From the NCBI GenBank assembly GCA_009778325.1, contig WRJZ01000052.1, positions 1 to 64,000 of the forward strand: DNA of 64,000 nt, written 5' to 3'. This DNA comes from Candidatus Endomicrobium neocapritermitis. GTDB taxonomy: Bacteria; Elusimicrobiota; Endomicrobiia; Endomicrobiales; Endomicrobiaceae. A program made the position numbers and the translations under genes. The notes under the pieces were generated by a model that did not search any database, was not told where the DNA came from, and saw nothing but the letters and a program-made list of their open reading frames with translations. Shown here piece after piece: positions 278 to 53,893 of this stretch (position 1 is the stretch's first letter; the number at the start of each line of letters is the position of its first letter).

Positions 278-1615
278 ATGAAAATAGAACTTATATGTAC
301 GGGCAGTGAGCTTTTGACCGGAAAGGTTAATACCGATGCGGTTTATATCGGTTCCAAGCTGCAGGAACTCGGGCTTAACTTGTCGTGTATTACAAGCATC
401 GGAGACAGAAAAGATGAGCTTAGCTGCGAATTTAAAAGAGCGTTTGAAAGAAGCAGCGTTATTTTAGTTACCGGCGGGCTTGGGCCTACTTTTGACGATA
501 TAACGGTAGAAACGGCCGCAGAATGTCTCGGGCTTGAAATTTACAATGACGAGAAGGTTTTGAGTTCAATAAAAGAGCGTTTCGCGAAACGCGGCATTAC
601 CGAAATTCCAAAAAATAACGAAAGACAGGCGAATATAATTAAGGGAGCGAAAGTGCTTGAAAACCGTTTCGGCACGGCTCCTGGGCAGATGATTCACTTT
701 GAATATAAAGACAGCGACAGAAAAATAAGAAAAACTTTGTTTTTGTTTCCCGGCCCTCCCAGAGAGATGCAGCCTATGTTTGATGAAAACGCCGGACCTT
801 TTTTCAGAAGTTATCATTCCGGAATCAGAAAAAATCAATCTTTAAGAATATTCGGAGGCGCCGAATCCGTCATTGAAGCAATGATAAGACCTGTTATGGA
901 CGCCGCGGGCTTTGGAGAAAACAGAGCCGTTGAGTTCGGCATACTTGCAACCGACAGTATAATAACCGTAAAGTATTCGGTGTCCGGCAGTGACGAAATG
1001 CTGGTTGACGATATTTGCGGAAATTTAAAGTTTGAACTTGAAAAAGTTTTAGGCGACAGCGTTTTCGGATACGGAGACGACGAACTTTCCGACGTCGTAG
1101 GCAGGCTTTTAGCCGCAAATAAGAAAACCGTTACTTTCGCGGAATCATGTACCGGCGGACTTATAGCGGAGAAGATTACGGACATTGCCGGCAGTTCTGT
1201 ATACTTTAAAAGTTCCGTAGTGACTTATTCGGACGAGTCAAAAATAAAGTACCTTGGCGTTAAAGAAGAAACATTGCAAAATTTCGGCGCGGTAAGCGAA
1301 GAAACGGCAAAAGAGATGGCTGAAGGGGCAAGAAACGCGGCAGGATGCGATTATGCGGTTTCGGTAACAGGAATAGCCGGTCCGGGCGGAGGCTCAAAAG
1401 ATAAACCTGTAGGACTTGTCTATATCGGCATTGCGTCCGGAAAAGAAATGCAGGCTTTTAAATATATTTTTCCCGGAAGCAGAAAAGACGTAAGAAACAG
1501 AGCCGCCAATACGGCTTTGGATTTGCTGCGCAGAAAAATTTTAAACGACTCCGCGAAAAGGCAATTACGAATTACGAATTACAAATTACGAATCAAAGAC
1601 AAAACAAAAAAATAA
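278..1615 (+). CDS. cinA: CinA-like protein: MoCF domain plus nicotinamide-nucleotide amidase
   Basis: Cytoplasmic CinA family protein of 445 aa. The N-terminal half is a molybdopterin-binding-like (MoCF) domain, with the TGSELL motif near the start and a GGLGPTFDD motif. The C-terminal part is the CinA/PncC amidase domain, with TFAESCTGG and SVTGIAGPGGG. In the family this domain deamidates nicotinamide mononucleotide in NAD salvage. I prefer the ATG at 278 over the in-frame GTG at 254, because family members start directly before the IELICTGSELL-type strand. The last ~18 residues (QLRITNYKLRIK...) are not family sequence. They are encoded by the left arm of the heptad repeat at 1559-1672, and the stop codon lies in the repeat. 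Confidence 0.95.
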   Translation: MKIELICTGSELLTGKVNTDAVYIGSKLQELGLNLSCITSIGDRKDELSCEFKRAFERSSVILVTGGLGPTFDDITVETAAECLGLEIYNDEKVLSSIKERFAKRGITEIPKNNERQANIIKGAKVLENRFGTAPGQMIHFEYKDSDRKIRKTLFLFPGPPREMQPMFDENAGPFFRSYHSGIRKNQSLRIFGGAESVIEAMIRPVMDAAGFGENRAVEFGILATDSIITVKYSVSGSDEMLVDDICGNLKFELEKVLGDSVFGYGDDELSDVVGRLLAANKKTVTFAESCTGGLIAEKITDIAGSSVYFKSSVVTYSDESKIKYLGVKEETLQNFGAVSEETAKEMAEGARNAAGCDYAVSVTGIAGPGGGSKDKPVGLVYIGIASGKEMQAFKYIFPGSRKDVRNRAANTALDLLRRKILNDSAKRQLRITNYKLRIKDKTKK

Positions 1616-1672
1616 TTGTCTTTGTCGTTCGCTGTTGATTCGTAATTTGTAATTAGTAATTCGTAATTGTAG
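1559..1672. repeat. Heptad inverted-repeat element, word attacga; overlaps cinA 3' end
   Basis: The left arm (1561-1593) is built from degenerate attacga heptads. The right arm (1638-1671) is its inverted copy (gattcgtaatttgtaatt...). The loop carries the recurrent linker caaagacaaaac. The left arm is translated as the tail of CinA. The RNA could fold into a long hairpin just after the stop codon. Confidence 0.9.
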
Positions 1673-10628: not shown

Positions 10629-10642
10629 TATTGGAGGAATTT

Positions 10643-13600
10643 GTGAAAAAACCATTAATTAAAAAAATCTTGGCGAGTTTTATAGCCGTAATTTTTACGG
10701 TTACGACTTTGTCACAGAGTGTATCTGCGACCGGCATAATTGGAGTACCCCCCCTACCTGCTAGTTTCGCGGCGGAAAATACGCTGCGGCTGCAGAGCGT
10801 TTTACCTTTAACGCTCGGCAAAATAACAAACCTTCATGTAAAACAGTCTCCGCAAGTAATAATAAATATTCAAGACCTGCACAGCCATGCCCAAACTCAA
10901 AGAAATATCAATCAGATAATAAACCTGATTGTTTCAAACTATAAAGTGTCGGCAATATACGCCGAAGGCGGCGTCGGCGATATCAGCGTTGATTGGATAA
11001 AACAAATACAAGATGAGGAACTCCGCTCCCGCGTTATAGAACAGCTTTTGGAAGACGGCATACTTACGGCTGCCGAATATTACGCCATGACTAGTAGAGG
11101 CAATTACGAATTACGAATGACGAATTACGAATCAACGGCAAAGATGAAAGGCAATTACGAATCAACTGCAACAGCTGCCTATATTCCGTTAAAAGGAATA
11201 GAAGACCGCGAGATTCATCAAATAAATTTAAAAAGGCTGGCGGCAATACAAGATAACAAAAAAAGGTACGAAAGCAGTATTGCGAAAATAGAAAAAGAAA
11301 TAAAAGTTCTCAATAAACTTTATACCAACAGGCGCAATGTTAAATTCAACAAAATATTGTCTGATTATGAAAACAAGGAAATTGCAGACGCGAAATTTTA
11401 CAGAGTGATCGCGAAATACGTAGAGGCAATAAACAAAAACCCGGAAAGGTATAACAATTTTACAAAAATATCGCTGGAAAATTACCCGAATGTCAACGCT
11501 TATACCGAAATACTTTACAACAGCCGTGAAATAGACAATAAAGCCGCGTCAATGGAATTGCAAAGAGTTGTAAACGATTTAAAGTCGTCGCTTTCATACG
11601 TAGATTATAAATATATTCTTGATGAAACAATCAATTTTCAGGATACCGACAAAACGATAGAAATTTTGTCCCTGGTTATCGGGCAAGACCCATCGGCGCT
11701 GCGTAAGCTTCCAAACCTTGAGAGGCTGATAAAGTTAAACAAGCTTGCCAAAGAGTTAAACCCGATAGATTTGATTACGGAGCAGAGAAACCTTACCGAA
11801 AGAATAAAATTCGCGCTTGCGTATGACGACACCGAAGCGGAAATAAGTTTTATAACTGACTTTTTCAAATATTTCAAAGATTATATGTCGGCAAATTTAA
11901 CGCAGGATGACTGGATATATGTAAAAGACAATCTGCCGCAGTTTATAGAAATATTTAACAAATACGCAGCCGGAAACTATTTGGCGGAAATATCAGATGA
12001 TTTTGCGGAAATAACCGCATACTACGACTTAAACACCAAAAGAAACGAAATATTTTTGCAACAGTTGGGAGTTTCTTCTTCGTCGTCATTATCTGTATCT
12101 GTCATCTCCGAAGACAGTAATAGGGGATCCGCGTTAAAAAACCAAAATGGATTCCCGATAGAGGCGCTTGGGAATGACACTACAATGACAGCTCTCGAAT
12201 TATTGAAACAAGCTCAAGATGTCAAAATACTGATTACCGGCGGCTACCACAGCGAGGGATTAAAAAATCTCTTATCCGATAAAAACATATCGTTAATCCA
12301 AATAACGCCGAACGTCACCGCAGACATAACGGAAGCACAAAAAGCATATGAAAACATAATAAAAGAGCAGTCAAAACTCCCCAAAAATGCGTTATCTTAT
12401 ATTTTATTGTCAAGCTCAATTCCGCCATATCAAAAAGCTGTAATAATAAAAACATTAGTTGCAATAAATTTAGACGAAGCGGCTATAGCTAAAGCCATAG
12501 AAGCTGACAAAGCTTCAATTAGCGAAGACAAAACTAAAATTGTTATTGACGGGCAAGAATTTGAAATTACAGCCGCGCAAATTAATGTTATTGACGCAGA
12601 CAAAAAAGGCAAACTACAAGAAATAGTTGATGCTTTTGCGGGAACATTTTCAAAACAGACTTTTTTTGATTTTGTAAGTTTATTTGGCAAAGACGAACCG
12701 GGTCCTATTACCGAAATAGAAAGAGAGGCTTTGCAAAATAAAGAAAAGTTAGCTGGCATTTCAAATTGGCAAAGATATCCTAGATTTTTACAAATGTTTT
12801 TATTGGAAATAGAAACAGGTCTAAAAGTAAAAGCTCGTGGAAAAATAAAATCTGTTTTCGATGTTTCATCGGAAGAAGTTAAAGCTTTAATAAGAGGACA
12901 TGAGAAAGACATAAAAACTTATATCAAGGCTCCGACATTCGGATTACAAATTCCAAAGTTTTCAGCAATGGAGGATGCGCAAAAGTGGATGTCGGATATT
13001 GACAAAAAGTTTAACGGCAGACTGATAAGCGCTATCGGTTCCGTTGACGGAATGAAATGGTTTTCCGTTTTACGTTCAAACAAGGAATTAGCTGACGAAT
13101 ATGCGTTGATATCCGAGGCAAATGCGGCATTGGAGCAAGCTATAAAAGATAATGATGAATCAGCTGCAAAAAGCGCGCGCGAAACATTAAAAGGTTTTGA
13201 AAATTTCAGATTCAAAGTTTTATCCGCGGAAATTATGGCAAAATCCGGAGGTTATATAGCTGTACAGACTGCGGACAAAGTTGATAAAGACGGCAAAAAA
13301 ATTGAGGTTTTAGACTGTTATATTATAGGCTTGGACGGGTTGGAGAAATATAAAGTTAACGATAAAGTTCCGCACATATCAAGAGACGAGGTAAATAAAA
13401 GAAATACCGATGCCCAAGGCAAATCTTTGGAGAGCAGGCTGGCAGGTTTGTTCGGCACGGGAACAACTTTGCCACAAATAGAAGGTTTAACCGGACTTCA
13501 CAAACAAGTTTCGGAAAAAATGATTAGAGCCGACATTTTGGGGCTAAACATACATACCATAAATAGCAATGGTCTTAGCCAAGAAGCTAAAAACAGCGCA

Positions 13601-16600
13601 TTTTTGGCTTTGACTTATGATAAAACCGGCGAACTGAAAAGCTATCACGTCGTGAATTCTCAAGGAACTTCCATAATGCCAATAATGTATGAATTTGCTG
13701 GGGAAGCGACCACAGATGTTTTAGCCGTTGCAAACAATCGTTGGGATGAAAACGGAGAGCAGGTTCCGGTAAGTTTTATGTCATCCGGTTTAACTTCAAA
13801 TATTTTGTGGAGATTAATAAAAGAATATAAGCCGCAAGCTTTTAACTATAAGAAAAAATCTTTATTCGGATATAAGATTTCAGCAGCGATAACAACTTTG
13901 CAAGAGGCGAAAGAGTTTGCCTCAACTCTTCCCGGAGGATTTTTAGAAAAGATAGGTTCAGTAGACAATGCGGTATATTTTGATATTTTGTCGGCTTATA
14001 TGGAATTAAACGAAGACGCAATAAACGCTATAAAATCATTCGCTTCGGAATATAAAGTAAAAATAAACGGTAAAGAAAAGGATGTGATAGAAGCAATAAA
14101 AGCCGCAAGATCCGATAAGGGTGCGATTGAGTCAAAAGTTAAAGAAAAAAAGCCGAAAGAGGCGAATTTCAAAAATAAAGAAGAATACGCTAAAGCCATG
14201 TCTAAATTTGATAAATGGAAATCGGGCGAGTATGATAAGTTTGCAAAAAAATATGGGGAACTGATTAATTTCGGCATACTGTATCAATTTAAACAAGATG
14301 CGGGTTCGGTGATAGCTCTGCAGACTTCTTCAGACGGAATCCTTGATGTTTACATAATAGGCAAAGGAACCTACAACAAAAAATACGACAAAAACATCGA
14401 TTGGAATGTAATAAATAAAAAAACTAAAATAGCGGGCAAAACGTTACAGGACAGACTGCTTGGAATGGGAATAGATATAGCGTCTTTGGGAACAGATGTG
14501 ATAGAAGGAATTGATAAACAGCAGCCCGAAACTATGATTCGCGCTCAAGACATAGGCCTTAATATTACAGTGGAAAGTTCGGCAGGCGCGCAGGAAACTC
14601 TTTCAGGCGCGTTTATTGCAATAAGCGAAGACGGTTCATGGCACATAGTTAATGCTGAAGCCTCGGAACTTGTTCCCATTCAATATGAACTTGCCGAACA
14701 GATAAAACCGACCGCAAGAGAAGCGTTGTTAGGATATGACGCTAAAACAATTTATAAAATTATCGGAGAACTTAACGGCTCTTTGTTAAGCGATTATAAT
14801 ATTGCCGGCAAGATTGCAGATGTTGCCAAAGGAATTGTTACCGTAAGAGTGGGAGCAGACGGCACTATTTCAATGATATATCAATATAATGGGGCTTTAG
14901 AGAAGTTGCTGATCCCGCTCATTGGGAACGAAGTATATTATGAGAAAAATGGAACAAGCGCAATGATTTCATTCGATAATGTTAATGTGCCAAAATATTT
15001 TAAAAATCTGTTGGATTTTGTTATGAAATCAGGCTTGTATAGTTTATGGAAAAAATCTAAAGGCGAATTGAAACTTTCCGATAAAGATGAAAAATATTTT
15101 AGAGATATTGAAAGAAAAGCAGAAGAAACTTACAGAGCAAAACAGGCAAAGATTGAAGAATTAGAAGGCTATGTGCTAAGGTTAAAACAGTATAGCAATA
15201 GCAGCTTTAACGACAATCAACGGAAACAATATGATGAAGCCGCTATAGCTTGGAGTAATGCAAAAAAAGTACTCTCAGAATATTATAAAGATAAGTCCAA
15301 CCCTGCGTTTCAAGAACTTATAGAGGTAGCTAACTTTTCAGAAAATGATATTTCAAGCGTCAAAAAATTAGAAAAACATATTAAGCGGCTGAAGGCTGTA
15401 CAGCAAGGCGCGGCGCTGGTTTCGGATTCTACGATAGAGTATTACACAAAAACTTTGGAAGGACTGCTGGAACTGTGGCAAGTCAAACAAGATAAAGCCA
15501 ACAAGGAGATAATCGGGGAGATAATAAAAAAGACAATGGAAGAAGTTGGATTCCAAGATCTTTCGGAAGAGAAAAAAGAAGAAGCAATAAATTATAGGAT
15601 CATCTCGCAGCTTCTTGCTCCTGAAAAGGAAGCGGGTATAATAGCTCAAATAGTTGAAGCGGTGCTTGTCGGTAAGATAACATTAGAACAAATTTTGTCG
15701 GGCACATTTCCGGCAGATTCGATTGTCGGTAAATTTTTATCCGGAGACCATTCAAAGTATCCTGATGCAAAAGAATTATATCATCAAGGATTATACGACA
15801 TAGTTAGTAAGACAATCGATGCTTTAAGTTATAGCATGCCGTTTACATTGCCATGGTTTGTGATACCTTTTTGTCAACCTGTGGCTGTACAAATTGCCGC
15901 GTTGTGGTTTAAGATTCCTTTTTTTCGACAAAAAGCTTTAGAAACAGCTGCGCGTGAAAGCATTGCTCCGCATATGCAGTGGAATGAAGAGCATCCCGAT
16001 CCGCTTACAACCGACGGAGGCAAAAATAGCGGTAATATAAAGGGGTTTGAGTGGTATATACTTAGTCATAAATTAGATGATTTATTATATGGCGGGGATA
16101 TTTTTCAAGAAGACATAAATATTTTTAAAGGGATCGTATGGCTGGTTTCCGGTAAAGATTATGATGCAGCAGAAAGCGTATACACATCTGATTTATCAAA
16201 GCAGGTAAAGAGTTTTATTAATGAAGATGTAACGTGGGATAAATTTGCTGAAAGATTAAAAACAAAAGCTAACAATCGGAAAGAGGCAGATTATTCTCAG
16301 GCCATTAAATGGCTGCTTTCAGCCGTGTCGCAGGCTTCAGAGACACCTAATAAAAAATATGAAGAAGATTATGAGAGCAGTCAGGTCAAAATCCCCGAAC
16401 ACCTGAAACCTTTTATGGAAAAATTGGAATTACTTCTTAAGCCTAAATCGGAACGCGAATATGATTATTATAAAGATTCGTTAAGATTGATTGCAGCAAT
16501 TTTGTTTAAAAATGCCGATTATGTTATAGGTAAAGGAGGAAAAAGATATCCTTTGCTTCTGAATAGAAACGAATTTATGAAAGCGCTGTCAGGGTTAAAT

Positions 16601-19600
16601 ATAACGCAAGAGAGTATAAATAAGTATGCCGCGGAATCGGCCAAGATGGAATATGAATATAGTAACGGACGCGTAGAAATAAGCAATGATGAGTGGCGAG
16701 TAAAAGGTTATACAAAATCAGGAGATTTGTTAAAGGGAATGTGGGATATGTCAACTCCGGATGCTGAAGGCAAAAGCATAGAAACAAAGGTTAAAACTAT
16801 TGCTGATTTAAGAAATGCCGTCACTAACGATGAAAAAACTTCAATTGCTTTTGTTTGTTCATATAATGAACTTCGAAGCGCTTCGGCAGAAGTTTTACTT
16901 AAATATTTATTGTACAAAAACGGCAAAGAAAAAGTAGAAGTTTTTTCAGCCGGCTTAAACAAAATGTTTGGCAGAGAATTATCAGGCCAAGTAAGGAAAA
17001 AATTAGACAATAAATACGAAAGAGATAATGAAGAAGATAAAAAAATGTTAAATGCAATATCAGACGATTTTGTGTCCGAGTTTATAGTTGCGATTTTATT
17101 AAATAAAATTCCTGATTTTATAATAACATTTGAAGAGTTCCAAAAGAAGGAATTATTAGAAATAGGAAAAATTTTGGGTGTCGAGTTGAATGTATTTTTG
17201 TTTAGCGAACTTGACCCTGGATCATTTCCGAGAGAGAATAAGGATATAGATGGCAGTAACTGGCATTTTGTAATTAATAATATGGAGAAAATTTTTGAAA
17301 GTAATTTTAAAAAAGTGAAGGCGCAGGGAACTGCGCTGACTTCGGATGGTAAAAAAGGCAAGAAGTTATATAGTTTTGCGCCGTTTGCTTTAATACCTTT
17401 TTTAGAAGCGCATTGGCTGCCGGTTTTGTTGGCTGCAGGCGGTGTTGCGGCAGCCGGCTGGCTGGTTTGGAAAGTTTGGACAAACTATAAAGCAAGTCAA
17501 ATCCAAAAAAACGAAAAAGCTGAGAAAGATTACATTCCTGACGGCGTAATTAAAGGGGAAGCCGAACTCGACAGATTGCTTAAAGATATATATGGCGATT
17601 CCCCTTCTGAAAGCGTAATTAAAATTGACGAGGCACAGCAAGCATATATAAATGCCACAATTGAAGACTGTGATGAGGAAGGATATAAATATGTCATATT
17701 TAATTATTCAAAGATAGCGGATAGACAAGAAGAACTAATGTCTTATATAAGACAATTTGAAAACATTCTTTATCTTCACAATGTGGATGGCAGAGACCCT
17801 GACAGCGAAACTATACTTATGGTTCCGACAGAAGAAGCAGAGGCTGTAAAAAATAAAATAAATGAACTTTCGCAACCTAAAACGGATGTAAACAAGAATG
17901 CCAGAATTGAAGACTGTGATGAGGAAGGATATAAATATGTCATATTTAATTATTCAGAGATAGCGGATAGGCAAGAAGAACTAATGTCTTATATAAGACA
18001 ATTTGAAAACATTCTTTATCTTCACAATGTGGATGGTAGAGACCCTGACAGCGAAACTATACTTATGGTTCCTACAGAAGAAGCAGAGGCTGTAAAAAAT
18101 AAAATAAATGAACTTAGCGCAATAATGGACAAAAACCGTGAAGAAGTTAATAGAAGAATAAGAGCAGGAGAGGCTGTGTGGAAGATTGCGGCTTGGATAG
18201 CGTTCAGCCGGAAAGAAGGCAAGTTAGAGGGTTCGAGAGGCGAACAGATGGATTCGTTTAAACCGCGTAGTTTCTTTGAAGCTCATAGAGACAAAAGAGG
18301 CGTACTTGCGCTATACGGCGGGACTTTGTTGATAGCGGCAATTACGGGATTTATGTTTGTTGGCGCGGGTATAGCCGCCGCAATAACGATAGGAATAGCA
18401 GGCGGCTTGCTGTCTCACAAACCATTGCATTTTATAATAGACTATGTGTATATTAAAAATTCGGATCTCTATAAAGCGCGGCAGGTTCTGCAAAAGCAGG
18501 AAGATCAAATTACGGTTTTAGTTGTAAATGACGCTATTGCAGGTAAAGCTACCGGTATAAAAGTAGAAGGCACAAATATACGTTATGAAAATGTCAACGG
18601 GCAAATAGTAATATATGCAAACGGAATTGAATATGATACTGCAGTTAAAGAAATACACGGTTCAAAAGCCTTAAAAAAAATAATTAAAGAACATACGGGA
18701 GCCGATCTTACAAATGTGTCTTTAGAGGGGATTGCAGCAGACAAGGATATTCAAGCCGGCGATATTGTAGTTGACGGCGATATTATAAAGGTCAATGCCC
18801 AAGAGTATGAGTCAGCATACTCTCAAGGTTTTGAAGCGCTAAGTTATTATTTGCATCATGCCAGAGAAATAGCGAGAAACTTAAAAGAAACAAAAACAGA
18901 TAAAGCTATAGCGGATTTTACTAATAAAAGCGTAAATGACGTTGTAAAAGCTTTACAAAACGTAAAAACTTATTCTTCTATGAAATTAGCTGTTTCGGCT
19001 AAAGATGCCAAGGATATTGCGCAAAAGGTTAATTTATCCGCATTAAGATTATTGGGCGTAGAAGTGTTTGTAGCGGGAAATGAAACGGCTGAAAACTATC
19101 AAAGCTTGGGTTTCTGCGGAGAAATAAACGGCAGTTTATTGATGGATTATTATACTGGACAGACAATAAAAGTTAACACTGCAGATGATGCCGGCGGTTT
19201 GGATGCAATAGGTTTTCAAAATCTGCTAAATCAAGCGGAAGGTTTTGTTTTAATAGATATAGATGTTATAAATAACAATTTTAAAAGCCGAAGAAATATT
19301 TTGCAATTAAACGATAACTTCGCGGCATTGACAGGCAGCTTAAAAGTAAAGTTCGGACTTACTGAAATAAATTTGAATGAAGCGATAAGCATGGCATATA
19401 GGCTGGATTTAAACAATATGCCTATTTTGGAAACAGAAGAAAATCTTAATGTAGAACATGCGCAGGGCTTGCTAGATTCATTGCCTTCAAATCACTCTGT
19501 AAAAACGTTGTTAAATACGGTAAAGAAATTTGATACTGATGGACAAGTAAACAACATAATAATAGAAAGAATTTTAATTGCAAATTTTCTTGCAAAAAAA

Positions 19601-19903
19601 GGATTAAAAACTTCCGGCAAAAAAACGGTGATAGATGACAAACAAATGGAAGTTTTACTAGGGAAAGCGCTATTTCAGTTGGACGGAACAGATATTAGCC
19701 CCAATATAGAATTTGGCGATATACAGCATTACAATGACTATATAATACAAGAGTCAAAAAAGAATACTAAACAGGCAGCGGCAAATGTTGTAGAAATGAT
19801 ATTTCTGTATCATGGCATAGCTATAGACATAAATAAGTATAAAGAACAGCTTTATAATTCCAACAGACAAACCGGATATAAAGCAATTTTAGCCGCAGCA
19901 TAA
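10643..19903 (+). CDS. Giant exported multidomain protein with ChaN/TIKI-like N-terminus and LMW-PTP-like domain
   Basis: 3,086-aa protein. I chose the GTG at 10643 because ggagg lies 5 bases upstream; an in-frame TTG at 10631 is less likely. Signal peptide at residues 1-30. Residues ~70-560 have motifs INIQDLHSHAQTQRNI, IYAEGG and LITGGYHSEGL, resembling the ChaN/TIKI-like haem-binding or protease fold seen in giant proteins of Elusimicrobiota and Omnitrophota (my recollection). Residues ~773-1034 and ~1082-1376 are a diverged duplication. Hydrophobic segments lie near 1735-1757, 2246-2280 and 2553-2590. Residues ~2066-2225 match low-molecular-weight tyrosine phosphatase: FVCSYNELRS gives C2072 and R2078 of CX5R. 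An 82-aa tandem repeat follows (2337-2492). Two repeat-element peptides are inserted in frame (residues ~153-181 and ~486-513). It is probably surface or periplasmic; the function is unknown. Confidence 0.8.
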   Translation: MKKPLIKKILASFIAVIFTVTTLSQSVSATGIIGVPPLPASFAAENTLRLQSVLPLTLGKITNLHVKQSPQVIINIQDLHSHAQTQRNINQIINLIVSNYKVSAIYAEGGVGDISVDWIKQIQDEELRSRVIEQLLEDGILTAAEYYAMTSRGNYELRMTNYESTAKMKGNYESTATAAYIPLKGIEDREIHQINLKRLAAIQDNKKRYESSIAKIEKEIKVLNKLYTNRRNVKFNKILSDYENKEIADAKFYRVIAKYVEAINKNPERYNNFTKISLENYPNVNAYTEILYNSREIDNKAASMELQRVVNDLKSSLSYVDYKYILDETINFQDTDKTIEILSLVIGQDPSALRKLPNLERLIKLNKLAKELNPIDLITEQRNLTERIKFALAYDDTEAEISFITDFFKYFKDYMSANLTQDDWIYVKDNLPQFIEIFNKYAAGNYLAEISDDFAEITAYYDLNTKRNEIFLQQLGVSSSSSLSVSVISEDSNRGSALKNQNGFPIEALGNDTTMTALELLKQAQDVKILITGGYHSEGLKNLLSDKNISLIQITPNVTADITEAQKAYENIIKEQSKLPKNALSYILLSSSIPPYQKAVIIKTLVAINLDEAAIAKAIEADKASISEDKTKIVIDGQEFEITAAQINVIDADKKGKLQEIVDAFAGTFSKQTFFDFVSLFGKDEPGPITEIEREALQNKEKLAGISNWQRYPRFLQMFLLEIETGLKVKARGKIKSVFDVSSEEVKALIRGHEKDIKTYIKAPTFGLQIPKFSAMEDAQKWMSDIDKKFNGRLISAIGSVDGMKWFSVLRSNKELADEYALISEANAALEQAIKDNDESAAKSARETLKGFENFRFKVLSAEIMAKSGGYIAVQTADKVDKDGKKIEVLDCYIIGLDGLEKYKVNDKVPHISRDEVNKRNTDAQGKSLESRLAGLFGTGTTLPQIEGLTGLHKQVSEKMIRADILGLNIHTINSNGLSQEAKNSAFLALTYDKTGELKSYHVVNSQGTSIMPIMYEFAGEATTDVLAVANNRWDENGEQVPVSFMSSGLTSNILWRLIKEYKPQAFNYKKKSLFGYKISAAITTLQEAKEFASTLPGGFLEKIGSVDNAVYFDILSAYMELNEDAINAIKSFASEYKVKINGKEKDVIEAIKAARSDKGAIESKVKEKKPKEANFKNKEEYAKAMSKFDKWKSGEYDKFAKKYGELINFGILYQFKQDAGSVIALQTSSDGILDVYIIGKGTYNKKYDKNIDWNVINKKTKIAGKTLQDRLLGMGIDIASLGTDVIEGIDKQQPETMIRAQDIGLNITVESSAGAQETLSGAFIAISEDGSWHIVNAEASELVPIQYELAEQIKPTAREALLGYDAKTIYKIIGELNGSLLSDYNIAGKIADVAKGIVTVRVGADGTISMIYQYNGALEKLLIPLIGNEVYYEKNGTSAMISFDNVNVPKYFKNLLDFVMKSGLYSLWKKSKGELKLSDKDEKYFRDIERKAEETYRAKQAKIEELEGYVLRLKQYSNSSFNDNQRKQYDEAAIAWSNAKKVLSEYYKDKSNPAFQELIEVANFSENDISSVKKLEKHIKRLKAVQQGAALVSDSTIEYYTKTLEGLLELWQVKQDKANKEIIGEIIKKTMEEVGFQDLSEEKKEEAINYRIISQLLAPEKEAGIIAQIVEAVLVGKITLEQILSGTFPADSIVGKFLSGDHSKYPDAKELYHQGLYDIVSKTIDALSYSMPFTLPWFVIPFCQPVAVQIAALWFKIPFFRQKALETAARESIAPHMQWNEEHPDPLTTDGGKNSGNIKGFEWYILSHKLDDLLYGGDIFQEDINIFKGIVWLVSGKDYDAAESVYTSDLSKQVKSFINEDVTWDKFAERLKTKANNRKEADYSQAIKWLLSAVSQASETPNKKYEEDYESSQVKIPEHLKPFMEKLELLLKPKSEREYDYYKDSLRLIAAILFKNADYVIGKGGKRYPLLLNRNEFMKALSGLNITQESINKYAAESAKMEYEYSNGRVEISNDEWRVKGYTKSGDLLKGMWDMSTPDAEGKSIETKVKTIADLRNAVTNDEKTSIAFVCSYNELRSASAEVLLKYLLYKNGKEKVEVFSAGLNKMFGRELSGQVRKKLDNKYERDNEEDKKMLNAISDDFVSEFIVAILLNKIPDFIITFEEFQKKELLEIGKILGVELNVFLFSELDPGSFPRENKDIDGSNWHFVINNMEKIFESNFKKVKAQGTALTSDGKKGKKLYSFAPFALIPFLEAHWLPVLLAAGGVAAAGWLVWKVWTNYKASQIQKNEKAEKDYIPDGVIKGEAELDRLLKDIYGDSPSESVIKIDEAQQAYINATIEDCDEEGYKYVIFNYSKIADRQEELMSYIRQFENILYLHNVDGRDPDSETILMVPTEEAEAVKNKINELSQPKTDVNKNARIEDCDEEGYKYVIFNYSEIADRQEELMSYIRQFENILYLHNVDGRDPDSETILMVPTEEAEAVKNKINELSAIMDKNREEVNRRIRAGEAVWKIAAWIAFSRKEGKLEGSRGEQMDSFKPRSFFEAHRDKRGVLALYGGTLLIAAITGFMFVGAGIAAAITIGIAGGLLSHKPLHFIIDYVYIKNSDLYKARQVLQKQEDQITVLVVNDAIAGKATGIKVEGTNIRYENVNGQIVIYANGIEYDTAVKEIHGSKALKKIIKEHTGADLTNVSLEGIAADKDIQAGDIVVDGDIIKVNAQEYESAYSQGFEALSYYLHHAREIARNLKETKTDKAIADFTNKSVNDVVKALQNVKTYSSMKLAVSAKDAKDIAQKVNLSALRLLGVEVFVAGNETAENYQSLGFCGEINGSLLMDYYTGQTIKVNTADDAGGLDAIGFQNLLNQAEGFVLIDIDVINNNFKSRRNILQLNDNFAALTGSLKVKFGLTEINLNEAISMAYRLDLNNMPILETEENLNVEHAQGLLDSLPSNHSVKTLLNTVKKFDTDGQVNNIIIERILIANFLAKKGLKTSGKKTVIDDKQMEVLLGKALFQLDGTDISPNIEFGDIQHYNDYIIQESKKNTKQAAANVVEMIFLYHGIAIDINKYKEQLYNSNRQTGYKAILAAA
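11098..11182 (+). repeat. attacga heptad repeat inserted in frame in the giant gene
   Basis: Sequence ggcaattacgaattacgaat and its continuation through caacggcaaagatgaaaggc and a second partial word run matches the intergenic elements at 26283 and 38203. It is read as GNYELRMTNYESTAK plus a second NYESTATA unit. No inverted right arm is present. Reading continues in frame into AAYIPLKGIED on the far side. Confidence 0.9.
12100..12182 (+). repeat. Family-2 palindromic element inserted in frame in the giant gene
   Basis: It begins tgtcatctccgaa, contains taggggatcc and atggattcccgata, and ends gggaatgacac. These are the same ends and inner arms as the intergenic copy at 141-252, with a shorter middle. 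It is translated as a low-complexity peptide starting VISEDSNRG and ending ALGNDT, just upstream of the ITGGYHSEGL motif. Confidence 0.88.
17651..18116 (+). repeat. 246-bp-period tandem duplication inside the giant gene
   Basis: Copies at 17651-17870 and 17897-18116 are nearly identical at the DNA level, including third codon positions; the few differences include K/E in NYSKIAD versus NYSEIAD. The encoded ~74-aa unit begins ATIEDCDEEGYKYVIF and ends EAVKNKINEL. The near-identity points to a recent duplication. The unit predicts alpha/beta secondary structure and I recognise no family. Confidence 0.93.
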
Positions 19904-23097: not shown

Positions 23098-26000
23098 ATG
23101 AAAAAGACGATTTTTTTTATTTTGATGTTTTTCGTATTTTCGCGCGGGGTTGTTTTTGCAAATGAGCTTGCCGCGTCGATAATTGCCGGAGAGACGGATA
23201 AGGCCGTGAGCTTAATAGAACGCGGCGAAGGCATTGATATAAATGCAAAAGACGAGCAGGGGTATACGCCTCTTATCATTGCCGCACAACATGGAGACGC
23301 TGCGGCGGTCAGGGCTCTTATAAATAAAAATGCAGATATTAACGCGAAAAGTTATAAAGGCATTACGGCATTAATGGCGGCGGTTGAAAAAGGAAGTATC
23401 GATATCGCGATTATGCTTGCAGACGCACGCGCTGAAATAGACGCTAAAGACAATGAAGGATGGACGGCTTTGCTTTTTGCCGCGCGTTCCGGCAATGCAG
23501 GTATGGCAAGGTTTTTGATAGACAGAAGGGCTGATGTAAACGCCAGAAACTATGCCGGCGAGACTCCTCTCACGCAGGCTGTTGAGAAAAGCCACAGAGA
23601 CATAGTAAAAATGCTGATTGAAAACGGCGCTAATGTAAATGCAAGGCAGAATAACGGATGGACGCCGTTAATGTTTGCGGCAAAAAACGGAAGCGATTTT
23701 ATCATGACGCTTTTAGTTGACGAGAAAGCCGACGTAAACGCAAAAAATAATTCATACTGGACTCCTTTAATGATCGCAATTAAAAGCGGACATCAGGCCT
23801 CGGCAAAACTTCTTATAGAATCAGGAGCGAATGTTAACGTTGAAAATGAAAATAAGTGGACGGCCCTGATGTTTGCCGCTGAAGCAGGCAGCGAGGAAAC
23901 CGTTAATCTTCTCATAGACAGAAATGCAGGAATTGACGCGAAAAACGATTCAAATTCAACCGCGCTTATCATTGCTTTGGACAATAAGCGTGCCGAAACG
24001 GCAAACCTCCTCATTAACGCCGGAGCAAACGTAGACATAAAAAATAATAACGGAATGACCGCTCTAATGCTTGCTCTGAGGAACGAATACGTTAAAGAAG
24101 CCCGTAAAATTATAAACAAAACCGCGAATGTCAATGCCACGGACGCTAAAGGCTGGAACGCTTTGATGTTTGCGGCAAGGTACGGCAATTCATCGGAAGT
24201 ATTTTCGGATCTTATAAATAAAAGAGCGCATGTTAACGCCAAGAATGATTCCGGCTGGACTGCCCTTATGCTCGCGGCTTACGCCGGCAACGGGGAGTTT
24301 ATTAAAATACTCATGGAAAATGGCGCTGATACCGAGATTAAAAATAATAACGGCAGGACTGCTCTTATGGAAGCGATTGAAAATAAGCATCCGGAAACGG
24401 CTGCTGTTCTTATCGCGGAAGGCGCGGACGTAAATGCGAAAGCCGGCGAAATATATATGACCGCGCTTATGTTTGCTTCAGCCGCAGGATACGACAGCCT
24501 TGTTTCTCTTTTGCTTTCAAAAGGCGCAAATGTTGACGATAAAAATAATGAAAATATGACGGCTTTGTTTTTCGCGGTAATAAATAACAGAATCGGCACC
24601 GTGAAAAAACTGATTGAATCCGGAGCTGATATAAACTTAAGCGACAATAAAGGAAAAAATGTTTTGGCTTATGCCGTAGAAAACGGACATAAAGAACTTG
24701 AAAAACTGCTCAGAGCCGAGATTGCCGATAATGCAAAAGGCGTTTTAGCCGAAATAAATAAAGGCGAAGGAATGGACACCCATGTCACTCCGGTTTTGCT
24801 TGCCGCTTATGACGGCGATATTGAAAAAGTAAAAGAAAAATTATCAGCAAGTAAAAAAGCCGCCGGAGAGAAAACACCGCTGGGAGTTACTCCGCTTATG
24901 ATAGCCGCGTCAAAAGATAATATTGAGATGGCAAAACTTTTGATTGAAAAAGGAGTGAAAGTCAACGTTTCCGCTAAAGACGGTTCTACGGCTTTGATTT
25001 TTGCGGCGCGCGGCGCATCGCCTGAAATGATAAATCTGCTTCTTGATAACGGCGCAAAAGTAAATTTGGCTGATAAAAAAGGGCTGACGCCTTTATCGGC
25101 GGCAATAAAAGCCGGAAGAATAGATGGAGTTCACGTTTTGATTGCGAGAGGAGCCGATGTAAATAAAAAAGATATTGAGGGGATGACTCCTCTGATGCAT
25201 GCCGCGAGAAACGGAAATGAGCGCATAATAAAAGAATTGATAAAAAGCGGAGCAAAAGTAAACGATAAGAATAAATCCGGACAGAGCGCGCTTATGATTG
25301 CCGCCGACGCAGAAAATAAAGAAGCGGTAAATATTTTAATTGAAAACGGCGCGGATATAAATATGAAAGACAATAACGGTTTTTCGGCTTTGGCTATGTC
25401 GGTATATAACGGCAAACCGGAAATGGTCGCTCTTCTTATAGAAAAAGGCGCGAATGTAAATATTAAAAACAACAAAGGCTGGACTCCGCTCATTATTGCG
25501 GCTTATCATGACAAAGCCGGCATTGTAAAAAAGCTGTACGAAGCCGGAGCGGATATAAACGCTGCAACGAAAGACGGCTGGACAGCTCTTATGGTTGCTG
25601 CAAAATACGGCAAAGACAAAATGGAAACTCTTAATCTGATTATAGAGCTTAAGCCGAATATCAATTTTAGAAATAAAAGCGGATGGAGCGCATTGATGCT
25701 TGCGGCTTATGAAGGAAATATTAAATCCGCGCAAGCGCTGATTTCCGCAGGCGCTGATGTCAACGCTTCAAAAAAAGACGGTTTTACGTCGCTCATGCTG
25801 GCCAGTGAGGCAAAAAACGCGGAAATGGCCAAACTTTTATTGTCTGCCGGCGCGAATATAAATATTGACAGTTCGTACTGGGGAACGGCTCTTAATGTCG
25901 CAGTTGCGAACGACGATGAAGAAATGGTCAGATTTTTGGTAAGGAGCGGGGCTGACAGAAACAAAACCGGAAAAAGCGGAAAGACGGCTTTGATGATAGC

Positions 26001-26283
26001 CGCGATGAGGGGCAATATCAAGATTGCGGAGTATTTGATTAATAACGGCGCTGACGTGAACGCGCAAGAAAAAAGAAGCGGATATACCGCTCTTGATTAT
26101 GCCTTCGGAAATGATGAAATGATAAATTTTCTTAAACAGCACGGTGCAGATAAAGCCAATGCTTTGAAGTACGACAAGATAATGGAAGAAAAACGCGAAT
26201 CTTTCTCCGTTCAGAAAGTTAATACGGCCGAAGGAAGCTCAACTTCTCCGTTTGATAATTCTGAGAAATGGATGCTGCAGTAA
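23098..26283 (+). CDS. Exported protein with 29 ankyrin repeats
   Basis: 1,061-aa protein. A signal peptide (residues 1-22, ending VVFA) is followed by ankyrin repeats of about 33 aa, each with the GxTALMxAAxxG and GADVNAKN pattern. I count 29 by hand: 15 in a first array (residues ~55-545), a short irregular linker (AEINKGEGMDTHV), then 14 more to about residue 1020, and a polar tail ending SEKWMLQ. It would form a long solenoid outside the cytoplasm, for binding partner proteins. Ribosome site caaggag precedes the ATG. An exported solenoid of this size hints at interaction with other cells, which is inference. Confidence 0.95.
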   Translation: MKKTIFFILMFFVFSRGVVFANELAASIIAGETDKAVSLIERGEGIDINAKDEQGYTPLIIAAQHGDAAAVRALINKNADINAKSYKGITALMAAVEKGSIDIAIMLADARAEIDAKDNEGWTALLFAARSGNAGMARFLIDRRADVNARNYAGETPLTQAVEKSHRDIVKMLIENGANVNARQNNGWTPLMFAAKNGSDFIMTLLVDEKADVNAKNNSYWTPLMIAIKSGHQASAKLLIESGANVNVENENKWTALMFAAEAGSEETVNLLIDRNAGIDAKNDSNSTALIIALDNKRAETANLLINAGANVDIKNNNGMTALMLALRNEYVKEARKIINKTANVNATDAKGWNALMFAARYGNSSEVFSDLINKRAHVNAKNDSGWTALMLAAYAGNGEFIKILMENGADTEIKNNNGRTALMEAIENKHPETAAVLIAEGADVNAKAGEIYMTALMFASAAGYDSLVSLLLSKGANVDDKNNENMTALFFAVINNRIGTVKKLIESGADINLSDNKGKNVLAYAVENGHKELEKLLRAEIADNAKGVLAEINKGEGMDTHVTPVLLAAYDGDIEKVKEKLSASKKAAGEKTPLGVTPLMIAASKDNIEMAKLLIEKGVKVNVSAKDGSTALIFAARGASPEMINLLLDNGAKVNLADKKGLTPLSAAIKAGRIDGVHVLIARGADVNKKDIEGMTPLMHAARNGNERIIKELIKSGAKVNDKNKSGQSALMIAADAENKEAVNILIENGADINMKDNNGFSALAMSVYNGKPEMVALLIEKGANVNIKNNKGWTPLIIAAYHDKAGIVKKLYEAGADINAATKDGWTALMVAAKYGKDKMETLNLIIELKPNINFRNKSGWSALMLAAYEGNIKSAQALISAGADVNASKKDGFTSLMLASEAKNAEMAKLLLSAGANINIDSSYWGTALNVAVANDDEEMVRFLVRSGADRNKTGKSGKTALMIAAMRGNIKIAEYLINNGADVNAQEKRSGYTALDYAFGNDEMINFLKQHGADKANALKYDKIMEEKRESFSVQKVNTAEGSSTSPFDNSEKWMLQ

Positions 26284-26348
26284 AGGCAATTACGAATTAC
26301 GAATGACGAATTACGAATCAATGGCAAGGGCAAAACGGCAATTGTGAA
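26283..26348. repeat. Half element, word attacga
   Basis: ggcaattacgaattacgaatg and its continuation through caatggcaagggcaaaacggcaatt is nearly identical to the coding copy at 11098 and the intergenic copy at 38203. No inverted right arm is present. It lies directly after the ankyrin gene stop, so here it did not extend the protein. Confidence 0.85.
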
Positions 26349-27673: not shown

Positions 27674-30193
27674 ATGAAAAATCAGAAAATTAACGAAATA
27701 CTAAGCCTTGTGCAAAGGCCGTCAAGATATATCAACAGCGAGCTCAACTCTCATCAGGCTGATATGTCTGCGGATTTTTCCGTATGCCTGTGCTTTCCGG
27801 ACATTTATGAAGTAGGAGCTTCAAATCTCGGGCTTGAGATTCTTTACCATTTAATAAATGAAAAAAAGCTGGCCAGGTGCGAGAGATGTTTTGCCCCTGA
27901 TACGGATTTGGAGCAAATACTGCGTGAAAGAAAAATAAGCCTTTTTTCGCTTGAATCCCAAAGCGGTTTAAATAGTTTTGATATCGTGGGATTTACCATT
28001 CAATGCGAACTTGTCGCGACAAATATTATTAATATGCTGGATTTAAGCGGTATGTCCGCTTTTGCAAAAGACAGAAAAGAAGAAGACCCTCTTATACTCG
28101 GCGGAGGCCCGGCTTTGACAAATCCCGAGCCTTTTGCCGATTTTTTTGACGCTTTTGTTATCGGCGACGGCGAAGTGGCGATGCCTCTTGTAATAAATTC
28201 ATGGAAAGAAACAAAAAACATGCCTAAAGCCGAAAGGCTTAAAAAACTTTCCGAAATAGAAGGCGTTTATATTCCTTCGCTTTATAATGTCGAGTACAAT
28301 GAAGACAATACGGTAAAATCAGTTTTGCCGGTAAGCGGCGAAGTTAAAGCTGTTGTGAATAAAACCGTTTTAAACCTTGAAAACGCATATTTTCCCAAGA
28401 AAAAAATAGTTCCTTTTGCCGAAACAGTGCACAACAGGCTCAATATTGAAGTTGCGCGCGGATGTCCCGGACAGTGCAGATTTTGCCAGGCTTCAAAATA
28501 CTATCGCCCGTGGAGGCAGCGCCCCCTTGAAAATCTTTTGGAGCTTGTAAAAGAAGGGTTAGCGTCTACCGGTTATGAGGAAGTGGCTTTTTCGTCGCTT
28601 TCATGCAGCGATTATAAAAATCTTGATAAGCTGCTGATGGAAACAAATAATTTGTACGGCAGTTCAAATTTGAGCATATCTTTGCCGTCTTTGCGCTGTA
28701 ATGAACATTCGCTGAAAGTCGCGCAGTATATAAACCGCAGCAAAAGGCCTACTTTGACTTTCGCGCCTGAAGCCGGCACTGACAGGCTAAGGAATGTTAT
28801 CGGAAAATATTTGTCCGAAAAACAGATTGTCAAAACGCTGCTTTCGGCAAACGCCATGGGCTGGAAAGTCATAAAACTTTATTTTATGATAGGGTTGCCC
28901 ACTGAAACTGATGAGGATTTAGCAGGTATAAATACTTTAGTGCGTTTTGTTAAAAAAGAGGCCAAAAAGGGCAATTACGAATTACGAATTACGAATTACG
29001 AATCAACGGCGAAAGGCAAAGGGCTCGATTTTAATATTACTGTTTCTCCGTTTGTGCCGAAAGCGCAGACTGCTTTCCAGTGGGCGCCTATGACGGCTCC
29101 CGAGAAAATAAAAGAGAAAATTGATTATTTAAATAAGATTCTTCCAGCAAAAATAAAAGCGCATAACTACAGAGCAAGCGTGCTGGAAGCTTTTATCGCA
29201 AAGGGAGACCGGCGCGTTTCCCGGGCGATTTACAAAGCGTGGCAAAAGGGCGCGCGGTTTGACCAGTGGGCCGATAAATTCGGCAATGATATTTGGAGCG
29301 AAGCGATTGCCGAAAGCGGGCTGAGTATTGATTTTTATGTTTACAGGGCAATAAAAGAGGGCGAAGTCCTCCCGTGGGATCATATTAATTTCGGAGTTAC
29401 AAAAGAATTTTTATATAAAGATTATATAAAAGGCATAAATGAAACTGCCGAAGCCGAAAGTGAAAAATTCGATAAAACGCAGTGCCTGCTGCCGGAAAAT
29501 TATGAAGAACCTAAAAATTCGGTTTTGCCGCCCGTAATGCGTATACGCCTTCGTTTTTCAAAAACGGGCATGGTTAAATATGTTTCGCATCTTGAACAGA
29601 TTGAAGTTTTAAGAAGGGCGGCAAGGCGTTCCGGGCTGCCTGTGGCATATACCGCGGGTTTTAGCCCGCAGGTAAAATCATCTTACGGACCTCCTCTTTC
29701 GGTAGGACATGAAAGTTTATGCGAATACATGGAGCTTTATTTTACGGAAAAAGTGAATGCCGGTGAAGTAATTGAAAAATTTAGCGCAAATCTTCCATAC
29801 GGATTCTCTATTTTGGACGCGAAAAGGGTGCCTCTTAACTTCCCTTCAATAGATGTTTTGGCAAATGTTGCTGAATTTTTAATAGAAAATGCGGATATAG
29901 CGCAGGAAAAGATAGATAATTTTATAAACCAAAGTTCAATACCGGTTGAAAAGTCCAAAAAAGGCAAAATTATCGAAATTGACGCTAAGCCTTTAATAAA
30001 AAAGATTCAAAATATTGAAGGTTCGCTGATAATGCAGTTAAGATTTGGCAGCGGAAAAACGGTAAAACCTGAAATGATTTTAAAAAAACTATTGGAAAAT
30101 AATGAAATTTATGCCAAAATATACAATATATACAGTATAAAAAAAATAAAATTATATATAGAGGTATCCAACGGGGAGATTTATGAGCCGTAG
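27674..30193 (+). CDS. TIGR03960-type radical SAM protein fused to DUF2344
   Basis: 839-aa protein. The N-terminal ~200 residues form a B12-binding-like Rossmann region (LCFPDIYEVGASNLGLEIL). The radical SAM core has the cluster motif CPGQCRFCQ (CX3CX2C). The C-terminal domain from about residue 615 is the TIGR03936/DUF2344 type (MRIRLRFSKTGMVKYVSHLEQ). This fusion is often found next to rng and ribosomal genes such as rplU, as here with RNase G two genes on. An in-frame repeat-element peptide (residues ~432-450, NYELRITNYESTAK) interrupts the core between EAKK and LDFNITVSPF. The gene overlaps the next by 11 bases. Confidence 0.92.
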   Translation: MKNQKINEILSLVQRPSRYINSELNSHQADMSADFSVCLCFPDIYEVGASNLGLEILYHLINEKKLARCERCFAPDTDLEQILRERKISLFSLESQSGLNSFDIVGFTIQCELVATNIINMLDLSGMSAFAKDRKEEDPLILGGGPALTNPEPFADFFDAFVIGDGEVAMPLVINSWKETKNMPKAERLKKLSEIEGVYIPSLYNVEYNEDNTVKSVLPVSGEVKAVVNKTVLNLENAYFPKKKIVPFAETVHNRLNIEVARGCPGQCRFCQASKYYRPWRQRPLENLLELVKEGLASTGYEEVAFSSLSCSDYKNLDKLLMETNNLYGSSNLSISLPSLRCNEHSLKVAQYINRSKRPTLTFAPEAGTDRLRNVIGKYLSEKQIVKTLLSANAMGWKVIKLYFMIGLPTETDEDLAGINTLVRFVKKEAKKGNYELRITNYESTAKGKGLDFNITVSPFVPKAQTAFQWAPMTAPEKIKEKIDYLNKILPAKIKAHNYRASVLEAFIAKGDRRVSRAIYKAWQKGARFDQWADKFGNDIWSEAIAESGLSIDFYVYRAIKEGEVLPWDHINFGVTKEFLYKDYIKGINETAEAESEKFDKTQCLLPENYEEPKNSVLPPVMRIRLRFSKTGMVKYVSHLEQIEVLRRAARRSGLPVAYTAGFSPQVKSSYGPPLSVGHESLCEYMELYFTEKVNAGEVIEKFSANLPYGFSILDAKRVPLNFPSIDVLANVAEFLIENADIAQEKIDNFINQSSIPVEKSKKGKIIEIDAKPLIKKIQNIEGSLIMQLRFGSGKTVKPEMILKKLLENNEIYAKIYNIYSIKKIKLYIEVSNGEIYEP
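28969..29022 (+). repeat. attacga heptad repeat inserted in frame in the radical SAM gene
   Basis: gggcaattacgaattacgaa and its continuation to caacggcgaaaggcaaag is nearly the same as the copies at 11098, 26283 and 38203. It is read as GNYELRITNYESTAKGKG, in the same frame as in the giant gene. The flanking protein sequence fits the family on both sides. Confidence 0.92.
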
Positions 30194-38202: not shown

Positions 38203-38276
38203 CGGCAATTACGAATTACGAATGACGAATTACGAATCAACGGCAAACTGCAACGGCAATTACGAATCAGCAACAA
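38203..38276. repeat. Half element, word attacga
   Basis: acggcaattacgaattacgaa continues through gaatcaacggcaaactgcaacggcaattacgaatcagc. It is very similar to the coding insertion in the giant gene, including the second short word run. It lies between convergent genes. No inverted right arm is visible. Confidence 0.85.
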
Positions 38277-46005: not shown

Positions 46006-46132
46006 AAAGGAAAGAGTGAAGAGTGAAAAGTGAAGATAACGAGTTTTCGCGAAGCGAAAACCTATTAACGGGTTTCGGCAGAGCCGAAACACAATATCTT
46101 CACTCTCCACTCTTCAATCTTCACTCTGTAGT
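46006..46132. repeat. Heptad inverted-repeat element, word agagtga, with paired core hairpins
   Basis: The left arm is agagtgaagagtgaaaagtg (46013-46035). The right arm is the inverted copy cttcactctccactcttcaa (46099-46128). The core has GTTTTCGCGAAGCGAAAAC at 46043-46061 and GTTTCGGCAGAGCCGAAAC at 46072-46090, followed by acaata. It has the same layout as the elements at 7342, 53756 and 62175, but with a different word. Confidence 0.92.
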
Positions 46133-53753: not shown

Positions 53754-53893
53754 AGATAAGAACGGCAGAGTTCAGAGTTCAAAGTTCAAATATTGTGTTT
53801 CGACAGAGTCGAAACTTATTTATACGTTTTCGCTTCGTGAAAACACCAAAATTGCACTTTGAACTCTGAACTCTGAACTTTGCCGTTGAAAAG
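53754..53893. repeat. Heptad inverted-repeat element, word agttcaa, core in opposite orientation
   Basis: The left arm is agagttcagagttcaaagtt (53767-53790). The right arm is the inverted copy actttgaactctgaactctg (53857-53881). The core has GTTTCGACAGAGTCGAAAC at 53797-53815 and GTTTTCGCTTCGTGAAAAC at 53826-53844, preceded by tattgt. Relative to the elements at 46006 and 62175 the core is reversed. Confidence 0.92.

Follow-up and report, generated by a model that had tools for sequence, protein, structure and literature searches.

A conserved B12/radical SAM gene in the window (the whole stretch of DNA analysed here, 64,000 nucleotides from the genome of an Endomicrobium, a bacterium of the termite gut) contains 18 additional codons that very probably represent a single arm of a non-autonomous palindromic repeat, present in many copies and made up of four heptamers, carried in frame as a tolerated loop. 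The observation is real, it is derived from a repeat, and it is general within the lineage. The host gene and its insert are arranged as follows:

27674-30193, forward strand: host gene of 839 aa, two-domain B12/radical SAM protein (TIGR03960 plus TIGR03936/DUF2344), from the ORF and profile search
28964-29017, forward strand: insert of 54 nt (18 codons) without counterpart in relatives, from the alignment; its ends can slide by a few nt
28970-29006, forward strand: repeat arm GGC-[AATTACG]x4-AATCAA with four T-type units, inside the insert

The original prediction had described the peptide GNYELRITNYESTAK at 28969-29022 as lying between segments of the TIGR03960 family, and it is indeed read in frame within the 839-aa ORF. 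TIGR03960 matches this ORF with 659.9 bits against a cut-off of 462.3, covering profile positions 2-585 of 605, its C-terminal part matches TIGR03936 (181.3 bits, cut-off 71.9), and the Pfam domains are Radical_SAM_N2, Radical_SAM and DUF2344. The insert, KKGNYELRITNYESTAKG, comprises residues 431-448. Family-wide presence had been named beforehand as the observation that would speak against an acquired peptide; when the window protein was aligned with proteins of related genomes, the insert was seen in none of the 56 rows for relatives (57 including the window protein itself, representing 45 distinct proteins; some genomes appear twice from two collections). The named relatives are Endomicrobium or Endomicrobia, for the most part metagenome-assembled genomes and several with termite names. 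Their DNA is continuous across the insert site, and comparison with it revealed no clean target-site duplication. An AlphaFold2 model (window protein plus 23 relatives) shows a helix at 413-431 before the insert, a strand at 454-460 after it, and pLDDT below 50 at residues 433-452; as the model is of moderate quality (mean pLDDT 67.9, pTM 0.69), only the local topology at the insert was used. The insert is thus located in a predicted loop between helix and strand, in agreement with the surface loop that had been proposed.

The radical SAM ORF of a sister species, G003 (Cu122P5bin43; L027, L040), carries another repeat peptide of 32 residues, SHFCRHCEEGQSPDAAIQSLKTLDCRAPSALA, in frame at a different position, its source being a GTCATTGCGAG...CAATCC repeat. 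In the loop where the window protein has its insert, the G003 protein has the six residues GLGAGD.

The repeat arm has the architecture ACGGC-[AATTACG]x4-AATCAACGGC, with the consensus AACGG-CAATTAC-GAATTAC-GAATKAC-GAATTAC-GAAT-CAACGGC-AA. The 36-nt pattern GGCAATTACGAATTACGAATKACGAATTACGAATCA, allowing up to 3 mismatches, occurs 125 times in the source genome G000 (2,380,768 nt or ~2.38 Mb in 54 contigs), 64 times forward and 61 times reverse, and the reversed pattern, at the same threshold, was found nowhere in the whole genome. The 23-nt core (up to 3 mismatches) has 12 matches in the window and none in 100 shuffles of it; on these two comparisons a chance origin is excluded, and the derivation of the peptide from a repeat, as first suggested, is borne out. 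A gapped search of G000 gave 104 matches; among the 100 matches listed, the spacing of the ends was by eye always a whole number of 7-nt units, and four units formed the commonest class. Arrays of four units make up 106 of 154 in a sample from G000, a share inflated by the use of four-unit patterns to pick the sample.

Many intergenic copies are inverted pairs able to form a long hairpin. Among 123 arms collected from 71 flank stretches of listed copies and the window, 46 form 23 strict inverted pairs and a further 18 have a weaker inverted partner; the complete palindrome at 1555-1678 folds as RNA with -49.1 kcal/mol. The intergenic arm pairs possess the terminal inverted repeats by which MITEs are recognised. 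Direct repeats of ACGGC stand at the ends of the element, and these are probably part of the element itself, since they are largely conserved among copies. The copies in the window, together with two palindromes from other heptamer families, are:

1560-1596, forward strand: first (left) arm of a complete palindrome, which lies at the 3' end of ORF 254-1615
1638-1669, reverse strand: right inverted arm of the palindrome begun at 1560, 108 nt from arm to arm
10631-19903, forward strand: giant ORF of 3090 aa, with the second in-frame copy, belonging to a paralogous family in the genus
11099-11135, forward strand: arm in the giant ORF (GNYELRMTNYESTAK), missing from the best G002 relatives in the homologue comparison
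11150-11165, forward strand: single-unit copy GGCAATTACGAATCAA, in frame (GNYEST), just past the giant-ORF arm
26285-26321, forward strand: single arm immediately past the stop codon of ORF 23098-26283
38204-38240, forward strand: intergenic single arm
46006-46123, no strand assigned: palindromic element of the AGTGAAR heptamer family, arms at 46006 and 46096
53762-53876, no strand assigned: palindrome built on a third heptamer, GAGTTCA, with left end ACGGCA and arms at 53762 and 53849

Heptamer arrays are an odd feature of this genome. The window holds 15 period-7 arrays of 4 copies, while all 5 local shuffles gave 0, and no arrays of periods 6 and 9-12 were found in it; nor were heptamer arrays found in the radical SAM gene and flanks of the relatives (27 loci, 136 kb). 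By eye, the heptamer families of the window are AATTACG, AATTAAC, AGTGAAR, GAGTTCA and GAGAATA, some of them as inverted pairs. Another type of repeat is seen at 1-146 of the window, where copies of a tandem 63-bp unit contain GTCATTGCGAG...GTGGCAATCC; the same general type is also encountered in loops of ValS and PyrK, where it gives VIARS..-type peptides. The giant-ORF family is large, reaching open frames of up to 10988 aa in the genus (G004), its members share an IQDLHSH-like motif, and one paralogue of the giant ORF (L121) has an arm at another position. Many arms abut or supply stop codons, either by T joined to AACGG (giving TAA) or by a stop within the arm (26285 and 1560 in the window; L087, L106, L112, L117, L122, L133), and give the neighbouring ORFs short C-terminal tails such as AITNYE.

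The first reading of the sequence had recognised two in-frame cases, the radical SAM gene and the giant ORF, and had described their peptides as nearly the same. Both cases are real, and the giant-ORF peptide, GNYELRMTNYESTAK, differs by one residue and is read in the same phase; the count is higher, at least 13 arms in 12 ORFs. When the 123 arms of G000 were screened, 19 rows satisfied the ORF criterion, 14 of them sense and 5 antisense. One sense row (L105) was left out as an arm between two ORFs without homologue, and the five antisense rows, each separated by 37-57 codons from the upstream stop of its long ORF, were kept out of the count of 13. The host ORFs encode valine-tRNA ligase (ValS), a FabF-like synthase (below cut-off), MutL, MiaA, LigA, NADPH-dependent glutamate synthase (labelled GltD), a TPR protein, the giant-protein paralogue, a PyrK-like subunit (217.7 bits, cut-off 219), a second B12/radical SAM protein with two arms (labelled rSAM2), and the two window genes. 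Matches to NCBIfam with E <=1e-10 were obtained for 9 of 10 sampled host ORFs, and ValS, MutL, MiaA, LigA and the glutamate synthase passed the NCBIfam cut-offs.

For all 13 arms the repeat peptide is missing from the homologues in G002 and/or G004 (for rSAM2 a homologue was available from G004 only), and all 13 are situated where relatives free of the repeat have a short loop. The LigA arm coincides with a gap in the alignment with the solved DNA ligase structure 2owo, that of E. coli LigA, and the MiaA arm with a gap against 2qgn. All 13 are in sense orientation (two-sided binomial p 2e-4), and none has an inverted partner within 250 nt downstream, compared with 64 of the 110 other arms (Fisher p 3e-5). 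The count of arms "in frame" is partly built in, because in-gene arms were recognised by their open frame; a crude scan for frame-breaking arms gave 25 candidate pairings, which by eye look like neighbouring rather than split genes. The antisense arms, IRNSSFVIRNCR, stand close to where long ORFs have their N-terminus (L070, L091, L112, L119, L134), some of them directly preceding a stretch that resembles a signal peptide; they may be fused to the N-terminus or belong to the upstream DNA.

The arithmetic of the repeat bears directly on this pattern. As 7 is coprime to 3, the array encodes the cyclic peptide NYELRIT whichever of the three sense frames is read. The sense strand of [AATTACG] has no stop in any of the three frames, and an array of T-type units read antisense has a stop in every frame, which accounts for the sense-only bias. 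The 13 in-gene arms use all three phases (7, 3 and 3). The common G-type third unit creates TGA in one sense frame, and T-type units alone make up the three arms that are read in it.

We suggest that palindromic heptamer elements have spread through Endomicrobium genomes, chiefly between genes, and that survival within genes would be restricted to copies that keep the frame and sit in tolerant loops. The 7-nt period would ease such survival, in that a stop-free sense array yields one cyclic peptide from any phase. Most probably the additional peptide is translated and persists as a surface loop that is neutral or only slightly costly. It is highly improbable that the insert is instead cut from the transcript or skipped in translation, although a precedent for the latter exists in the translationally bypassed palindromic elements of Magnusiomyces mitochondria (in the part of PMC6649704 available to us): the frame is open in 13 of 13 arms, the phase that can contain a stop is used by stop-free arrays only, the solo arm in the radical SAM gene is barely structured (-1.5 kcal/mol), and no Rfam family matches within the 64-kb window. 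Still harder to credit is an artefact of metagenome assembly. Arms stand at the ends of several contigs (C15, C34, C45, C10, C42, C48), so the repeat does disturb assembly, but the frames run on through the 13 arms, and arms in the same loops are present in the independent assemblies G001, G003, G023, G028 and G031.

The distribution of the repeat is patchy. Within the genus of G000, the 36-nt pattern (up to 3 mismatches) is found 16 times in G001, 14 times in G003 and not at all in G002 and G004. A 32-nt pattern with up to 2 mismatches was found in 7 of 198 genomes of the phylum (Elusimicrobiota, according to the available part of PMC11257099), belonging to two genera of one family, with counts of 132 in G000, 30 in G023, 14 in G003, 13 in G001, 3 in G031, 2 in G028 and 1 in G014. 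In a tree of the radical SAM protein, a single gene, G002 and G004 group with G000 (support 92/90), and the 32-nt pattern is absent from both. A screen of sampled relatives covered 64 arms (63 genomic and one from a viral contig) and returned 12 ORF rows; after the two rows of L220 had been set aside as an inverted pair whose ORF is doubtful, ten in-gene arms remained (G001 2, G003 1, G023 6, G031 1). In IMG/VR, one contig has an exact arm, L187 (IMGVR_UViG_3300042991_000775) at 13376-13407, outside a long ORF; this contig may be host DNA.

The loops themselves are shared between species. Nine loops were compared in nine genomes, the classes other than AATTACG being judged by eye and the FabF hits in G003 and G014 being left out as paralogues. 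AATTACR-type arrays occupy the ValS, MiaA and GltD loops in G000 and G001, the MutL loop in G000 and G001 (with a diverged copy in G028), the FabF loop in G000 and G023, the PyrK loop in G000, G023 and G031, the rSAM2-C loop in G000 and G003 (diverged in G023 and G028), and the LigA loop in G000, G023 (twice) and G028, with a single unit in G031. By eye, other heptamers are found in some of these loops: AGTGAAR in ValS of G028 and G031, an AATTAGG-like array in FabF and rSAM2-C of G031, and AATAACA in MiaA of G023; one in-frame insert, in FabF of G031, appears palindrome-like. Where a homologue was found in G002 or G004, the loops in this comparison are short and have no heptamer array.

Arms in shared loops are identical at 31-32 of 32 positions (29/32 for MiaA; 31/32 by eye for rSAM2-C). 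Between G000 and G023, the LigA arm is identical at 32/32 positions and fourfold sites at 68/150; between G000 and G031, the PyrK arm is again 32/32 and fourfold sites 22/62 (21/61 for G000/G023, 41/84 for G023/G031). Fourfold sites between G000 and G001 are identical at 100/200 in ValS and 45/74 in MiaA. Plain vertical descent is hard to reconcile with arms of 31-32/32 beside fourfold identities of ~35-60%, and judging from these comparisons, near-identical arms between diverged species are not explained by simple insertion and vertical descent. They would reflect either separate arrival at the same codons or homogenisation, with the graded unit numbers in LigA favouring turnover of an old insert, and the clean loops of G002 and G004 favouring separate gains.

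Two histories of the loops can be considered. The loops could have been colonised once in the ancestor of the two genera, lost in G002 and G004, and their arrays homogenised by gene conversion or turnover, a history that we regard as possible, if short of probable. Loop and phase are identical in several species (ValS, MiaA, PyrK, LigA), LigA is graded from one unit in G031 through four in G000 to two arms in G023 (with neither G002 nor G004 having any), the single-gene tree places the pair G002 and G004 next to G000 and within the repeat-bearing species, and the FabF inserts of G000 and G031 are by eye alike at both ends with differing heptamers. However, loss would be required from every examined loop of G002 and G004, and conversion would have to hold 31-32 of 32 nt while fourfold sites fell to ~35-50%. 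Alternatively, a mobilising enzyme or replication process could reuse short sites (e.g., A-rich or ACGGC-like), the loops being hot spots; this, too, we can support only tentatively, as a real contender with less than an even chance. The array starts at the same nucleotide in PyrK of G000, G023 and G031 and in LigA of G000, G023, G028 and G031, the 32/32 arms of LigA and PyrK persist despite their diverged fourfold sites, and the ACGGC direct repeats at the element ends would fit such a process, but Y1_Tnp genes fail to track copy number and just one of the three in G000 lies next to an arm pair. Both histories are compatible with the insert being a solo arm of the four-heptamer repeat. A stronger claim, that an active heptamer system repeatedly rewrites the same loops (ValS, LigA, PyrK, FabF, MiaA and others) across species, by independent site-directed insertion or array replacement with near-identical arms or another heptamer family and a frame-independent peptide, seems to us rather unlikely.

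A Y1 transposase, as in REP/RAYT systems, was considered as the mobiliser and rejected in that simple form, although it is still of interest as a lead. In a survey of 76 genomes the presence of the gene fails to match copy number: G023 combines 30 copies with the lack of any Y1, and G018 has Y1 and no copies, so the tie between copy number and a cognate transposase that marks REP/RAYT is not seen. RAYT-like Y1_Tnp genes number three in G000 and two in G001, with none in G002-G004. The one Y1 gene of G000 with an arm-pair neighbour (G000:C47:75497-75832) adjoins an inverted pair at 75322-75416 (L117, L139).

Among known systems, Rickettsia palindromic elements (RPEs) comprise ten families, and the cyanobacterial short tandemly repeated repetitive (STRR) heptamers are degenerate heptanucleotide arrays. 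As described in the accessible parts of two papers, RPEs are palindromes of 105-150 nt with their own ORF, form several families and lie in frame in conserved genes, and a guanylate kinase carrying one is translated and active (PMC10969869, PMC2229807). The repeat described here resembles them, so far as those parts go, in forming high-copy palindromic families, several per genome, both between genes and in frame inside conserved genes. It is set apart from RPEs, by the descriptions, in belonging to another phylum and in its in-gene copies, which are solo arms of ~45-54 nt with four 7-nt units and a frame-independent peptide; the long stem-loop palindrome of RPEs is found here in complete intergenic copies (the 23 strict pairs) and not within genes, where none of the 13 G000 arms has an inverted partner. 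Geobacter metallireducens has the Gmet_H4 elements, 49 in number, which lie both inside genes and in the intervals separating them and have been interpreted as predicted regulatory RNA or as elements of global regulation (PMC2700814, available part). Four tandem heptamers are common to both, whereas the Gmet_H4 consensus in that text, GGACCGG / GGGACCG, is GC-rich and unlike AATTACG; reading frame, loops and peptides receive no mention there. The TAACTGA arrays of Beggiatoaceae, Cyanobacteria and Bacteroidetes, proposed as sites of translational regulation, are likewise dispersed arrays of a 7-nt unit, and the accessible portion of that study discusses coding limits per orientation; in contrast to the arms described here, they are mainly intergenic, immediately upstream of start codons, with the forward sense closed by stops (PMC4679880).

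Repeats read in frame within proteins have been described before (Rickettsia RPEs), as have intragenic elements of four heptamers (Geobacter). In the open-licence literature, no paper was found with AATTACGAATTACG or CGTAATTCGTAATT, nothing on heptamer repeats of Endomicrobium (including the available part of PMC11257099), and no system combining four heptamers, a frame-independent peptide, solo in-gene arms and reuse of loops.

Rickettsia is the best-known source of repeats lying in frame within conserved genes, and the present examples place them in another phylum. The setting is one of symbionts whose sequenced relatives include both repeat-bearing and repeat-free genomes, so that the cost of a loop of 10-30 residues becomes measurable from natural pairs with and without it (LigA, ValS, MiaA, FabF, radical SAM). 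If it is true that the same loops are hit repeatedly, this would show short repeats supplying loops to proteins, and how peptides derived from repeats can pass for conserved protein.
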